Origin: Actinomycetes bacterium
GTDB lineage: Bacteria > Actinomycetota > Acidimicrobiia > Acidimicrobiales > Acidimicrobiaceae
Direction of reading: 5' to 3'
Assembly: GCA_021803345.1 (NCBI GenBank)
Contig: JAJZLS010000062.1
Span: 1 to 34,644 of the forward strand
Length of the DNA: 34,644 bases
The stretch's first letter is position 1; each line of letters starts with the position of its first letter. Below are positions 1-6,404 of this stretch, one piece after another. The notes under the pieces are model-generated. The model worked only from the letters and a program-made list of their open reading frames with translations, made no database searches and was not told the origin of the DNA. A program made the translations under genes and the position numbers.

Positions 1-204
1 TGTGCGCCTTCCGGCGTGACCGATTGCAGTGGCATCAACCTTGTCCATTCCAACCCTAGCGTGAAAAGGCTGCCGTCAGTATCGCAAAGGTGAAAAACCG
101 GGTCTCTTTATGAGGCCTTTGGAAGGCTTGAGCCGAGTGCGGTGAAAATCGCCAGCTCTGGTTCTTAGGGGGTGCGACCCAGTAATGGGCCGTGCCTACC
201 CGAC
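1..204 (+). mobile_element. Group II intron 3' end (domains V and VI), possibly a reduced intron
   Basis: Domain V is visible at 130-164: GAGCC (130-134) pairs with GGTTC (160-164), GAG (135-137) can pair with CTC (156-158), and GCGGT/ATCGC closes a GAAA tetraloop at 144-147. Domain VI follows at 168-204: GGTGCG (171-176) pairs with CGTGCC (191-196), CCCA/TGGG closes a GTAA loop at 182-185, and GGG (168-170) pairs with CCC (199-201), leaving A198 bulged. A198 lies seven bases from the end at C204, the spacing expected of the lariat branch point. A seven-pair hairpin at 113-129 sits where a tiny ORF-less domain IV would be. GTGCG at 2-6 matches the 5' intron consensus GUGYG, so the element may be only about 203 bases, too short for a normal domain I; alternatively the window cuts a longer intron. 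No maturase is seen. Domain V is slightly imperfect (unpaired U138 and C153), suggesting decay. Confidence 0.6.
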
Positions 205-377: not shown

Positions 378-1628
378 GTGAATCAAATGCTGTGGTTCTC
401 TGAACTTCTGCGCACCCCAATTGATGAGGACCAACAGGAGATCGGCAAGGTCCAGGATATTGTGTTGCGCCTGGAAGAATCAGGTTTCCCAACCCTCACT
501 GGCATACTGGTGTATATCGAAGATATGCCAATATTCATTCCCACTCACGCAATTAGGGAGTTGACACCCGAAAGGATTATCACTTCCAAAACACTGAATC
601 AGTTCTCACCATTTGAGAGGCGCACGGGAGAAGTCCTTATCGGGCGCGATTTACTTGACCACCATCTGATATGGACCAGACCACGACATCGACCCAGGCT
701 CGTGATGGCTCGTGACATTGCTTTTATCAATAATGGCGGATGGAAAGCGGTTGGAATTGACGCTACAAGTCACAGGCTGGGTCTCAGGCTATTCTCAAAA
801 CATTCGAGTCCGGATAGACAGGTAGTAGATTGGCGGGAACTGCTTCCATTAGTTGGCCACGTTCCAACAGCACGAAGAAGACTTGAACTTGGTAAGATCC
901 GCAAACTTCATCCAGCCCAGCTGGCTGATCTCCTTGAACAAGCCTCCGAAGATGAAGGGAAGGAGATATTTGGAGCCCTTCAGGCTGATCCGGAATTCGA
1001 GGCTGACGTTGTCGAAGAAATGGAACCAAACAGGCGCCGTGAAGCTCTTCGAGAGAAGACCGACAATGAACTTGGTGAGTTACTGGGCACAATGGAACCC
1101 GATGACGCGGTTGACATGCTGCTTTCACTGGACCAAGACCGAAGGGAAAACGTTTTAGCCTTAATTCCAAAACCTCAGCAGAAGGATGTAAAAAGGCTAC
1201 TGCTCTACCATCCTGATACTGCTGGTGGCATAATGACTACCGATTTCATCACGGTCCGCTCAAGTGACACAGTGGAAGCCTGCTGCGAAGCCCTTCGGTT
1301 GAAGCCAGAACTTCCAGGTAACTTATGGTCAATTTTCGTGATAGACAGTCAACGTCGCCTCATTGGGCAGCTTCCACTGGCATGTCTGATAACGGCGCCG
1401 CCAGAAACGATCGTGACTGCACTTATTGCCGATATGAATCCCGCCACGGTTTCTCCCGATGCAGACCTTACCGATATAGCGGTGACGATGGCTGACTACA
1501 ATTTGGCAGCCTTGGCAGTCTTGGACTCATCAGAACATATCCTCGGAGTCGTCACTGTAGACGATGTGCTCTCCCGTACCATACCAGCCAACTGGAGACG
1601 CAGAAAAGAAGCGCTAGACGAGGGGTAA
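378..1628 (+). CDS. PRC-barrel / MgtE_N / CBS-domain protein (soluble MgtE-like)
   Basis: This 416-residue protein begins with two PRC-barrel-like modules (about residues 1-70 and 85-155), followed by a helical MgtE N-terminal (superhelical) domain (about 170-280) rich in the Leu/Glu/Asp repeats of the family, and then a CBS pair (about 283-395) containing the hallmark ending GVVTVDDVL. The five-helix transmembrane channel of true MgtE is absent, and I see no membrane segment at all, so it is probably a cytoplasmic sensor rather than a transporter. In MgtE the N and CBS domains bind Mg2+ and gate the pore; a similar sensing role here is inference. It converges on the Nramp-related transporter gene, 82 bases away. 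GTG is chosen as the start because a TAGAAT hexamer sits seven bases upstream; ATG at 387 is an alternative. Confidence 0.8.
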   Translation: MNQMLWFSELLRTPIDEDQQEIGKVQDIVLRLEESGFPTLTGILVYIEDMPIFIPTHAIRELTPERIITSKTLNQFSPFERRTGEVLIGRDLLDHHLIWTRPRHRPRLVMARDIAFINNGGWKAVGIDATSHRLGLRLFSKHSSPDRQVVDWRELLPLVGHVPTARRRLELGKIRKLHPAQLADLLEQASEDEGKEIFGALQADPEFEADVVEEMEPNRRREALREKTDNELGELLGTMEPDDAVDMLLSLDQDRRENVLALIPKPQQKDVKRLLLYHPDTAGGIMTTDFITVRSSDTVEACCEALRLKPELPGNLWSIFVIDSQRRLIGQLPLACLITAPPETIVTALIADMNPATVSPDADLTDIAVTMADYNLAALAVLDSSEHILGVVTVDDVLSRTIPANWRRRKEALDEG

Positions 1629-1710: not shown

Positions 1711-3306
1711 TCAGCCACCTCCAAGCCTGACAAAACTGACAATCATCAAAGCAATCGCCACGATGAGATAGATGCGCAAGCCACCCAATACCAGGGAGCG
1801 CCCACGATTTACCCGGGGGCGATGCAAAAGTGCGGAGGCCGGCATCGACCAGCTAAGGCGAGCCACTTTGTCCACGATAGGGCGCGAATTTCTCGATCTC
1901 CATTGTGAAATCCATACTCCAACCGTCACTAGAGCCACAAGTGAGAGACCCACTATAAGAATTGAAAGAACGTTTACACTTGGAACAACCGTCACTACTG
2001 TCAAAATAAGCGATAACTCCAGTAAAAGACCAATAATAAACGTAGCGACGACATTTAACCAGGGCGGGTTCACCCAAGGACCGAGGATTTCCTTATCATT
2101 GCAAAGCAGAAGCAAAAAAGCAAGAGCACTGGGCAATAACACTCCTGCCAGTACCTGAACAGCTAAGTTAATCAAACTCAAAGGAAGCCGTGGGATCAGA
2201 ACGATCCCTGCAGCAAGAATTACTAGGATCAGGTAGGAGCCATAAAAACCCTTTGCATCCCGAACCGGTCGGTTTAACGACTGGTCCACTCCAAAAAGAT
2301 CACCCAAGGCATATGAAGTTGAAAGGGTAACGGTTGCTGCACCTATTAGAGACGCTTCAAGCAAAACCAGCGCAAATAGGTAACCTCCCAACGACCCCAG
2401 GCTGTGTGCGAATCCGCGAATTAACCCGCCTGCATCCTGGAATTGACCGGTCACGCCTCCTAAAGCGAACGCCGCTGCCACCATTACCGCCGCAGCCGCA
2501 ACATTGGTTAGAAGCGACCCAATAAACGTGTCGGCTCGCTCATACCGTATCCACCGTGGAGTTATCCGCTTGTCTATGATATTTGACTGTTGAAAAAATA
2601 ATTGCCAAGGAGCAACTGTCGTTCCTACGATTCCGATGATGAATATCACAGCGGTTGAGGTGAGTCCGCCCTTGATGCTGGGAAATAATGCTCCAACTGC
2701 AACCGAGCTCCAACGAAATGGTGACAAAGCCATTAGTGGAAAAACCGCCAGGCTAACCAGCACGAGAACGAGCATAAACCGCTCCCATCGCTCAAATCTC
2801 CCGCTAATCACGCTTGCCACAAGAACGGCGGCCATCAAAAATACAGAGGCATAAGGCGGGATACCGATGTATCCCAGCGCATAGCGAACTCCGATAAATT
2901 CAGTTACCAGTGTCAAAAAGTTAAGGACAAACAAATCTATGACCGAAAACACTGCCCAGAATTTTCCAAAGCGCTCCTTGAGAAGTCTTCCGTGGCCAAC
3001 TCCAGTAACGGCGCCCAGACGAACCACCATTTCCTGAGATACTGCCAAAACTACCACCAAGAGCGGGAGAGTCCATAATAGTGAGGTTCCATAGGCCTGG
3101 CCTGCTTGAGCGTATGTGGTAATCCCTCCAGCATCGTTGTCACCCACCATAACAATGATGCCTGGTCCCATTATTGCCAATAGCGCCAGCAGCCGGCGCT
3201 TAATGCTGGGGCTTTGAACATCAGAGGTGGTAATTCGACCAAATCCTCCGCGAATGGTTTCGTCAGCCGCACCCAGACCTGTAGCTTGCAGTTTTGGATT
3301 ACTCAT
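1711..3306 (-). CDS. Nramp-related divalent metal transporter (NRMT-like)
   Basis: A 531-residue polytopic protein of the SLC11/Nramp fold with about 11-12 hydrophobic helices. The TM1 motif that is DPGN in Mn/Fe Nramps reads DAGG here (residues 58-61), and the TM6 motif that is MPH reads APW (232-234). Loss of the metal-binding Asn and of the soft-metal-selective Met is what is described for Nramp-related magnesium transporters, so Mg2+ import is more likely than Mn2+ or Fe2+; this is inference from two motifs. I chose ATG 3306 because AGGTGG lies five bases upstream; an upstream GTG at 3315 would overlap that site. The start codon overlaps the stop codon of a 35-residue leader ORF, implying translational coupling. 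It converges with an MgtE-like soluble protein, which supports a Mg2+ theme. Confidence 0.85.
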   Translation of the reverse strand: MSNPKLQATGLGAADETIRGGFGRITTSDVQSPSIKRRLLALLAIMGPGIIVMVGDNDAGGITTYAQAGQAYGTSLLWTLPLLVVVLAVSQEMVVRLGAVTGVGHGRLLKERFGKFWAVFSVIDLFVLNFLTLVTEFIGVRYALGYIGIPPYASVFLMAAVLVASVISGRFERWERFMLVLVLVSLAVFPLMALSPFRWSSVAVGALFPSIKGGLTSTAVIFIIGIVGTTVAPWQLFFQQSNIIDKRITPRWIRYERADTFIGSLLTNVAAAAVMVAAAFALGGVTGQFQDAGGLIRGFAHSLGSLGGYLFALVLLEASLIGAATVTLSTSYALGDLFGVDQSLNRPVRDAKGFYGSYLILVILAAGIVLIPRLPLSLINLAVQVLAGVLLPSALAFLLLLCNDKEILGPWVNPPWLNVVATFIIGLLLELSLILTVVTVVPSVNVLSILIVGLSLVALVTVGVWISQWRSRNSRPIVDKVARLSWSMPASALLHRPRVNRGRSLVLGGLRIYLIVAIALMIVSFVRLGGG

Positions 3307-3406
3307 AGTCACCACCTGTCAGACGAATCTGGCAACTAATCGATTGGAAACTGGCTCTATAAGGGGCTAACTTTCGGGTGTTGGGGCTGAGGCGCTCAAG
3401 AGCCAT
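3299..3406 (-). CDS. Upstream leader ORF of the Nramp-related gene (35 aa)
   Basis: ATG at 3404-3406 is preceded seven bases upstream by AAGGAGG (3414-3420), one of the best ribosome binding sites in the window. The frame runs 35 codons and stops with TAA at 3299-3301, overlapping the ATG of the transporter (ATGAGTAA). The peptide starts MALERLSPNTRKLAPY, has two prolines in its first half, and ends GGDYE; it has no signal peptide or membrane helix and matches no family I know. TGGCTCT around its start codon (3399-3405) is complementary to AGAGCCA (3352-3358), and a local hairpin (TGAG/CTCA) competes with that pairing. A regulatory leader or a coupling ORF is more likely than a functional protein. 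Short length keeps confidence moderate. Confidence 0.55.
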   Translation of the reverse strand: MALERLSPNTRKLAPYRASFQSISCQIRLTGGDYE

Positions 3407-3509
3407 CAACTTTCCTCCTTTCGATTCGGAACACGGCCCTCGAAAGGATTAGCTAAATACCCTGAAATGAAAACTTAAATAAGATCGATGACTTCACATC
3501 TTAGGGTTG

Positions 3510-3584
3510 CTAAAAGCTGACCAATCGGAGGGACGCAGTAGATGAAAAATTGAACTCGGTACTGTGGGGTTCACTAGGTTTCAC
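3510..3584 (-). CDS. Possible second upstream mini-ORF (24 aa)
   Basis: GTG at 3582-3584 is preceded by GAGGAGGTGA (3591-3600), a nearly complete complement of the 16S tail, with six bases between. The frame runs 24 codons to TAG at 3510-3512 and begins with Lys-Pro-Ser-Glu-Pro. It lies about 100 bases upstream of the coupled leader ORF, so the transporter may have two translated leader elements. GTG start and very short length make this tentative. The rest of 3407-3730 shows no other gene I can support. Confidence 0.3.
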   Translation of the reverse strand: MKPSEPHSTEFNFSSTASLRLVSF

Positions 3585-3730
3585 TTACTGTCACCTCCTC
3601 AACTAGGCCAATACGCAACTGCTGCAAAAATTAGGATAGTTGATTCTTGCACTGATGCGGCGCAGCAAGCTAAAGATCTTCACGAAACCATGAGGATCTT
3701 AGGCAATCTGGCACAGTTGATTAAGGCTAA

Positions 3731-4444
3731 TTAGCGCAGTGGTTTTACGCCAAAAACAATTGCCGCCTCTGCAACTATTGACTCTGAACCGACCTGAGCA
3801 AATCCAGCTTCCTGAAACAGCCGCTCCCAGGCTTCACGAGAAATTGGTTTTTCCTGCACTCTTACCAAATATCTGACCGAATTCTTGGCTATGCGCCACC
3901 ATCCACCCGGCCCCTTGCGCAACATCAGACTGACCTTGGAAGCTATTATCTCCCGATCCTGTTTGCTTGAGCCGCGTCCGAACATCATGTCTCCAAAAAC
4001 AATTCGGCCGCCCGGCTTTAGCCATTGGTACGCTCTGCCAACCGCCCATTTCTTCTGATCGTCGCTCAAATGGTGCAGAGCGTAATTGGATACTACCAAA
4101 TCAAAACTCTCGGGCTGGTAATCCAGCTCCTGGATACTTGCTACCCGCGTCGAAAGGTTTTCAATACCAGAACTAGTCACCTTGTTTTGAAGCAGTTGAA
4201 TCATCTTTGGCGATATATCAACAGCCAATACAGACTTCGCCTCTCTGGACAACGGTAGCGACAGCTGACCTGATCCACAGCCAAGATCGAGAACCACGGT
4301 GGTTGAGTCGGGGCTGGCATGGTCTAATACGGCAGAGACCACCTTTCCCAGACCAGGATTATCCGCATGATCCCAGCTATCTGCGCGCTTTGACCATACA
4401 GCCTTCTGGAACGACAGACCAAGTTTTTCAATAGCCGAAGACAA
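3731..4444 (-). CDS. Class I SAM-dependent methyltransferase
   Basis: A 237-residue soluble protein with the class I Rossmann methyltransferase core. Motif I reads LDLGCGSGQL (about residues 53-62), an acidic residue after the next strand (VLAVDIS) would bind the SAM ribose, and FDLVVSNYALHHL plus LKPGGRIVFGDM are the motif IV and post-motif strands. This pattern is of the UbiE/Methyltransf_11 type; the substrate cannot be told. The start is TTG at 4442-4444 with GAGAGG upstream (about nine bases). It is a single gene with no tight neighbour; the Nramp-related gene downstream has its own long leader. Confidence 0.8.
   Translation of the reverse strand: MSSAIEKLGLSFQKAVWSKRADSWDHADNPGLGKVVSAVLDHASPDSTTVVLDLGCGSGQLSLPLSREAKSVLAVDISPKMIQLLQNKVTSSGIENLSTRVASIQELDYQPESFDLVVSNYALHHLSDDQKKWAVGRAYQWLKPGGRIVFGDMMFGRGSSKQDREIIASKVSLMLRKGPGGWWRIAKNSVRYLVRVQEKPISREAWERLFQEAGFAQVGSESIVAEAAIVFGVKPLR

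Positions 4445-4760: not shown

Positions 4761-6404
<1,644 letters not shown>

Follow-up and report, generated by a model that had tools for sequence, protein, structure and literature searches.

A short conserved reading frame ahead of an NRMT-type transporter gene in an actinobacterial genome: a putative magnesium leader peptide

The DNA analysed here, called the window, is a stretch of 34,644 nucleotides (nt) from an Actinomycetes bacterium of the Acidimicrobiaceae (positions 1 to 34,644 of contig JAJZLS010000062.1, GenBank assembly GCA_021803345.1). It contains nramp1, a gene encoding an NRMT-type Nramp transporter, and upstream of this gene a leader open reading frame (ORF) of 24 codons at 3584-3510, whose first 12 codons show the conservation of a protein-coding frame. 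We consider it probable, by analogy with mgtL and mgtQ, that this leader ORF is translated ahead of nramp1 and controls nramp1 in response to Mg2+. A sequence-only reading of the same DNA had proposed a different leader, the ORF at 3406-3299, and did not mention the ORF at 3584-3510 (ORF1), which lies ~180 bases upstream of it; two short ORFs with strong Shine-Dalgarno (SD) sequences lie between a methyltransferase gene and nramp1. The leader and its elements are the following:

3510-3584, minus strand: leader ORF (ORF1), GTG start, 24 amino acids, MKPSEPHSTEFNFSSTASLRLVSF; start and frame position matched by 7 congener leaders
3591-3599, minus strand: leader SD AGGAGGTGA; GGAGGTGA is invariant in alignment A3
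3558-3572, minus strand: leader motif E-P-H-S-T (GAA CCC CAC AGT ACC), with the Ser codon AGT at 3561-3563
3527-3531, minus strand: CCTCC within the leader ORF, codons 18-20, predicted partner of the leader SD (helix P1) or of the downstream SD

The ratio of nonsynonymous to synonymous changes (pN/pS) in codons 2-12 of the leader was 0.06 between the window and seven congeners and 0.13 over all pairs, and the other frames gave 3.1 or undefined values. With the codons of the searched motif omitted, the ratio amounted to 0.07 (window against congeners) and 0.16 (all pairs). The first 12 codons are under purifying selection and, therefore, the constrained part of the leader is its beginning. Model R2 found one strong match in each of eight of the ten genomes of the genus, ahead of mgtE_N2 in seven of them and ahead of nramp1 in the genome of the window (G000); the match in G000 was a single copy at 3522-3609 (E 3.6e-23, the window sequence being part of R2).

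The same leader heads two different transporter modules. The neighbours of the leader in the window are:

3731-4444, minus strand: S-adenosylmethionine (SAM) methyltransferase, upstream of the leader; neighbour common to congeners and syntenic relatives
1711-3315, minus strand: nramp1, NRMT-type Nramp, with DAGG in transmembrane helix (TM) 1 and TTVA in TM6
378-1628, plus strand: MgtE_N + CBS protein (mgtE_N1) by domain matches, convergent to nramp1 and a frequent partner of this Nramp

In seven of the nine congeners a leader MKPSEPHST(D/E)F, almost identical to ORF1, was found in the equivalent position, again following the methyltransferase, but there it heads a different operon, mgtE_N2-nramp2; the locus of one more congener (L154) is cut by the contig end. 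Window and congeners could be aligned over a stretch that begins ~60 nt ahead of ORF1 and extends as far as the SD and the ATGGC at the mgtE_N2 start, with identities of 64-70% upstream, 68-77% in the leader, 36-50% in the spacer and 56-64% in the SD region (six of the seven congeners; the seventh, L151, was missed by the pattern and is present in alignments A3, A4 and A5). The methyltransferases of the congeners are 66-74% identical to that of the window, those of mgtE_N2 loci in other genera 50-55% and those of nine syntenic relatives 48-52%; in the syntenic relatives, which share the gene order of the window and have Nramp proteins 71-73% identical to its own, nramp1 follows methyltransferase and leader. 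mgtE_N2 is present in seven of the ten genus genomes, and 13 of 15 readable mgtE_N2 loci carry an EP(P/H)ST leader (five of the 15 were fetched via a leader match; eight of the other ten carry it). Neither mgtE_N2 nor nramp2 was found in the assembly of the window (G000, 94.9% complete): the search with mgtE_N2 gave only matches to mgtE_N1 at 30% identity, and the nramp1 query revealed a single Nramp in G000, while nramp2 was found in eight of nine congeners. Judged by gene order, methyltransferase and leader belong to a single locus; the module that follows differs, being mgtE_N2-nramp2 in the congeners and nramp1 with the convergent mgtE_N1 in the window and in other genera. Since the methyltransferase lies upstream of the leader in both settings, the leader appears to be resident, and we read the pattern as an exchange of transporter modules behind it. 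Capture of a leader from elsewhere by nramp1 was rejected, since the congeners have the same methyltransferase beside the leader.

A junction of this kind could also arise by misassembly. The genome is fragmented (90 contigs), methyltransferase and leader match the congeners whereas nramp1 and mgtE_N1 match other genera best, the latter two lie at the contig end, and one join between ~3306 and 3402 would suffice to produce the arrangement. We nevertheless regard an assembly chimera as very unlikely: the G+C content of nramp1 and mgtE_N1 is that of the other genes of the window (0.50; nramp1 of the syntenic relatives 0.54-0.68), the codon usage of mgtE_N1 is ordinary, the synonymous score of nramp1, albeit the lowest of 13 genes, is close to the next, and the order methyltransferase-leader-nramp1-mgtE_N1 is the same as in the syntenic relatives.

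Leaders of this kind were also found at other loci. Common to the relatives is a short ORF that has a strong SD and whose first codons read (S)EPP(S)(T) or a variant, such as MRSEPPST (L002, L004, L005, L007, L008 and L112), MARSSEPHST (L016), MKLEPPSTW (L026), MKSEPPSTC (L114), MDADSEPRST (L042) and SSEPPSR (L104, Aciditerrimonas ferrireducens, whose leader reads MRTIERSSEPPSRRPSA); some precede NRMT genes that do not adjoin the methyltransferase (L016, L026 and L104 among them). A loose pattern that included a second leader class matched 51 of 113 loci, counting duplicates (L032 and L033 are contigs of L004 and L009) and one match taken as chance (L076), and it missed KPPS ORFs that are present in L028-L030 and L092. 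The strict pattern EP[PHRS]S was found in short ORFs of 18 of 93 upstream regions, never on the reverse strand and never in 12 shuffles, although the loci are related by descent and the counts thus not independent. P[PHRSL]S was found in 31 of the 93 regions; the reverse strand gave two and the shuffles 0.7 on average (the 93 regions exclude L010, L031, L032, L033, L112 and loci with <180 nt upstream). The Ser codon of the P-x-S leaders was AGT in 35 of 35 cases, while AGT accounts for 6.7% of the 3141 Ser codons of the Nramp genes; the sole Q-P-P-N-T leader (L101) carries AAT. The distance from start to motif differs among the leaders by whole codons, an in-frame start having been required by the scan.

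In 61 genomes, all 15 places matched by model R1 at E <=0.028 lie at mgtE_N/Nramp operons (eight are R1's own sequences, and L125 is on a contig that ends before the Nramp gene). Among the weaker R1 matches (E >=0.029), those looked at (L130-L134, L138, L139 and L144) had no mgtE_N/Nramp operon. In a scan of the class with R1, 9 of 247 genomes had a match at E 0.01 or better, six of them at NRMT or mgtE_N2: three were new (MQAGEPPST or MKSGEPPST before mgtE_N2), one was an NRMT locus already known and two were R1 members (G012, G015). L177 and L178 were rejected as leaders and taken as chance, being longer reading frames with no mgtE_N or Nramp match, and the match at L181 lies just downstream of an NRMT. 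R1 undercounts such leaders, because the window's own leader is beyond its reach.

Eleven loci carry CTG-start candidates, reading MSADRG(S/T)P or MSAERGSP (L011, L013, L014, L015, L038, L054, L060 and L068) or MHAD(G/P)SP (L056, L066 and L067). Seven MSADRG rows gave a pN/pS of 0.58 in two frames, which is weak coding evidence; a second leader class is possible from these sequences.

Could the conserved element be an RNA sensor, that is a riboswitch or a protein-binding site, with the reading frame incidental? The invariant AGT would suit such a sensor, as would the fold of the window's leader, which is better than expected by chance (z -2.45, equalled by 3 of 200 shuffles), and the lack of clear coding constraint past codon 12. 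The low pN/pS in codons 2-12, with its far higher or undefined values in the other frames, and the spacing by whole codons speak for a translated frame instead. Rfam holds an mgtA leader RNA family, and the Rfam scan gave no match at the leader at gathering score, this family included. Hence, we think an RNA sensor of this kind quite unlikely.

The ORF proposed by the sequence-only reading is indeed present, and it lies where mgtE_N2 starts in the congeners:

3299-3406, minus strand: ORF of the sequence-only reading, 35 amino acids, ATG 3406 to stop TAA 3301-3299; start aligns with the congener mgtE_N2 start
3414-3421, minus strand: downstream SD AAAGGAGG, aligning with the mgtE_N2 SD of the congeners
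3440-3448, minus strand: 5' arm UCCUUUCGA of a predicted hairpin closing the downstream SD (fold z -1.59)
3416-3424, minus strand: 3' arm UCGAAAGGA of this hairpin, overlapping the SD (fold z -1.59)

Its 35 codons and stop, the SD AAAGGAGG ending 7 nt before the ATG and the overlap of the TAA with the Nramp start were all found as described. Three starts are candidates for nramp1 (GTG 3315, GTG 3312 and ATG 3306), of which ATG 3306 is most likely, and the gene's own SD is weak (AGGTG). Coupling of the ORF to nramp1 by stop and start is plausible from this arrangement, and the ORF probably hands ribosomes to nramp1. As the conserved leader it did not hold. Homologues were found in none of the nine syntenic relatives (L002-L009 and L112): in all nine, whose upstream DNA is readable, the frame is gone and the transporter kept, an outcome that the sequence-only reading itself had named as a refutation of its leader, and in the eight read for an SD, Nramp is preceded by its own GGAGGT-type SD. 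Of the pairing suggested within the ORF, the 7-nt complement between 3399-3405 and 3352-3358 exists, but the fold of the ORF is average (z -0.05; 98 of 200 shuffles did as well). Its open frame is unremarkable, since 22.9% of shuffled bodies were without a stop, and its body has no detectable relative (by hidden Markov model (HMM) score it ranks 393 of 942 when placed among shuffles). The ORF was rejected as the conserved leader on these grounds. Its codon usage scored below 98.6% of 212 in-frame windows taken from genes of this region, while it scored above 85% of the out-of-frame windows.

That this ORF might itself be the peptide that senses for nramp1 is therefore highly improbable in our view, notwithstanding its strong SD in a predicted hairpin, the stop-start overlap, the weak SD of nramp1 and the different ORF that ends at the Nramp start in L026, L113 and L114. 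The ORFs of these three loci share the C-terminus DCSPRHVL with synonymous changes and are possibly a second peptide element in the family of the window. In all, a reading frame that follows an SD and stops at the Nramp start was found at 12 loci, the window with the ORF at 3406-3299 and 11 with other ORFs.

Two derivations of this ORF were tried and rejected. SD and start align with SD and start codon of the congeners' mgtE_N2, and the ATGGC start of the latter falls where the ORF starts, but a decayed mgtE_N2 N-terminus scored no better than shuffles in local alignment (p 0.21-0.72) and by the same HMM rank. Position-anchored scores against mgtE_N2 of seven congeners gave p 0.0125-0.042; the body DNA is 37-46% identical and the alignable part is SD and start only. 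A frameshifted nramp1 N-terminus was rejected because nramp1, read from ATG 3306, already includes a usual-length N-terminus in its own frame.

In the predicted fold of the ORF1 leader, its SD and start pair with leader codons 13-20, and the helix thus formed encloses the motif. The congener alignment predicts the same helix together with a hairpin on the downstream SD, and the helix pairs hold in 94.4% of alignment cells compared to 44-55% when slid, although the structure was derived from the same sequences. The hairpin on the downstream SD gave z -1.59, with 13 of 200 shuffles as good. For the duplex of leader SD and body, at most 1% of shuffles were as good in L151 and in L145-L149, five mgtE_N2 leaders outside the genus whose helix is long and differs in sequence. 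The Nramp SD is clearly closed in some lineages only. Taken together, the modelled support for leader structures is mixed.

A number of observations weigh against the leader ORF at 3584-3510 as a translated, structured Mg2+ control element. On the side of structure, covariation is weak (three pairs have changed in both partners, a number that 37 of 500 shuffles attain); for the SD-body duplex, 11.5% of shuffles were as good in the case of the window and 4.5-26.5% in that of the other six congeners; and the purine-rich SDs paired with their bodies hardly more often than with shuffled ones (13 of 13 compared to an expected 11.4, and 28 of 35 compared to an expected 23.7). A closed Nramp SD was rejected as a general rule, not being significant over 47 loci (L032, L033, L076 and L112 left out), with p 0.096 against shuffles and p 0.035 against the leader SD. 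On the side of coding, codons 13-23 show no such constraint (pN/pS 0.77, compared to 1.86 and 0.52 in the other frames), codons 2-17 of six leaders from another genus gave 0.75 (1.22 and 0.66 in the other frames), and the leader ORF scores as poorly in codon usage as the ORF at 3406-3299, so that this test does not separate the two. Further, 62 of 113 loci are without a motif match, some of them without a gap before Nramp; two of the 15 mgtE_N2 loci (L158 and L159) are without leader; and the residue before the leader Pro is often non-acidic (K, L, N, Q, R or M), E-P being found in the window and many loci. Finally, neither a sigma-70-type promoter nor an intrinsic terminator was found in 3280-3760.

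The link to magnesium comes from the transporter. The description of the NRMT family (PMC8806188) gives as its signature DxxG in TM1 and TxxA/T in TM6, which nramp1 has with DAGG and TTVA. The best solved relative of nramp1 was 7qia (E 7.4e-54, 186 bits; next 67 bits), recorded as a divalent metal cation transporter. We take this structure to be EleNRMT. By sequence, nramp1 has the signature of a transporter of the Mg2+ (NRMT) type, and the sequence-only reading, which had called it Nramp-related and placed it behind a leader ORF, was right in kind. In the nramp2 protein of L152, TM1 carries GNDAGG and TM6 carries TTIS, that is DxxG as in NRMT and Ser where NRMT has Ala or Thr; nramp2 of this type may possibly belong to another substrate clade. 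In three Alicyclobacillus loci (L063, L082 and L086) an M-box Mg2+ riboswitch (Rfam RF00380) precedes the same transporter family and the motif leader is absent; a fourth (L079) has neither. No M-box match was found in 20 leader loci, 13 mgtE_N2 loci and the window. PMC4072509 records M-boxes before nrmT, mostly in Clostridia and Deltaproteobacteria.

The NRMT signature and the M-box before the same family in Alicyclobacillus argue for Mg2+ rather than another signal. A different divalent ion, proline or tRNA charging, or the state of the ribosome would be a real though improbable alternative: there are Pro codons at the motif, the AGT codon is invariant and otherwise infrequent, and Salmonella mgtP responds to charged tRNA-Pro, according to PMC8092293.

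As for the surroundings, the MgtE membrane domain had no Pfam match in the convergent protein encoded at 378-1628. At the left edge of the window, just upstream of the MgtE_N-CBS gene, positions 128-204 (plus strand) match the group II intron family RF00029 (44 bits), and L016 likewise has a group II intron match (3210-3344) near its NRMT. Upstream of the methyltransferase lies a gene for a major facilitator superfamily (MFS) transporter (Pfam MFS_1; 4761-6392, minus strand).

Modelled on mgtL, corL and mgtQ and on the competition of SD1, anti-SD and SD2 in the M. tuberculosis pe20 leader, we infer the following course of events for the leader ORF at 3584-3510. At low Mg2+ the ribosome would slow down or drop off at the E-P-x-S(AGU) codons near the leader start. 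Either event would shift which SD pairs with the CCUCC inside the leader ORF, would open the hairpin on the downstream SD (3414-3421), and/or would prevent premature termination. Ribosomes would load at the ORF 3406-3299, at the site of the congeners' mgtE_N2 start, and would reach nramp1 via the overlapping stop and start, the SD of the gene itself being weak. The Mg2+ response, the structural switch and the role of AGU are parts of this model. A broader proposal is put forward tentatively and must be called doubtful: that actinobacteria have a so far undescribed family of leader peptides sensing Mg2+ (P-x-S, obligatory AGU), which replaces the M-box before NRMT genes and mgtE_N2-nramp2 operons, with non-orthologous Mg2+ uptake modules exchanged behind one resident leader, and that sensing would work by codon-specific decoding, of a wobble-read AGU after proline, and not by acidic residues.

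To our knowledge, translation-based Mg2+ sensing by leader peptides is known only from enterobacteria. A literature search of titles and abstracts, with subscription papers mostly outside its reach, revealed no described leader ORF on an NRMT gene and no mgtE_N/Nramp leader in actinobacteria; a control region before actinobacterial Nramp-type Mg2+ uptake genes apparently is undescribed. If the reading is true, such a leader precedes transporters of a different family outside the enterobacterial phylum, and does so in the slot that a riboswitch occupies in relatives; this would suggest that peptide and riboswitch sensors are interchangeable at the same gene. The AGU after Pro-x would then be a defined codon for testing the effect of Mg2+ on decoding, and the leader a regulatory mark for recognising NRMT/MgtE_N systems.

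Among known systems, the M-box (RF00380) takes the corresponding position ahead of this transporter family, but it had no match at gathering score at the window or the leader loci scanned. The M. tuberculosis pe20 region (Mbox, uORF1/uORF2 (rv1805A); PMC12810186) has competing SD1, anti-SD in uORF1 and SD2; the likeness is a conserved upstream ORF (uORF) ahead of Mg2+-related genes and the SD1/anti-SD/SD2 competition predicted here, the difference that the sensor there is the Mbox, which was not found here. mgtQ, an ORF between mgtC and mgtB of Salmonella, has a strong AGGAGG, a downstream SD in a stem-loop and competing structures (PMC8092293); it likewise is a short intercistronic ORF, as at many loci here, but these often follow mgtE_N, not mgtC, and closure of the SD is not general across them. 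In mgtL, Pro and acidic codons are involved, and the more efficiently the ORF is translated, the less the transporter is expressed (PMC11552253). MgtL and CorL (mgtA and corA of Salmonella and E. coli) are likewise short ORFs upstream of a Mg2+ uptake gene, and the comparison with mgtL made in the sequence-only reading was apt. Here, in contrast, transporter family and peptide are others, the motif is P-x-S with an invariant AGU, and the acidic residue is not constant. The best reading by analogy is that the leader works like the Mg2+ leader peptides, the likeness claimed being one of arrangement and not one of homology.

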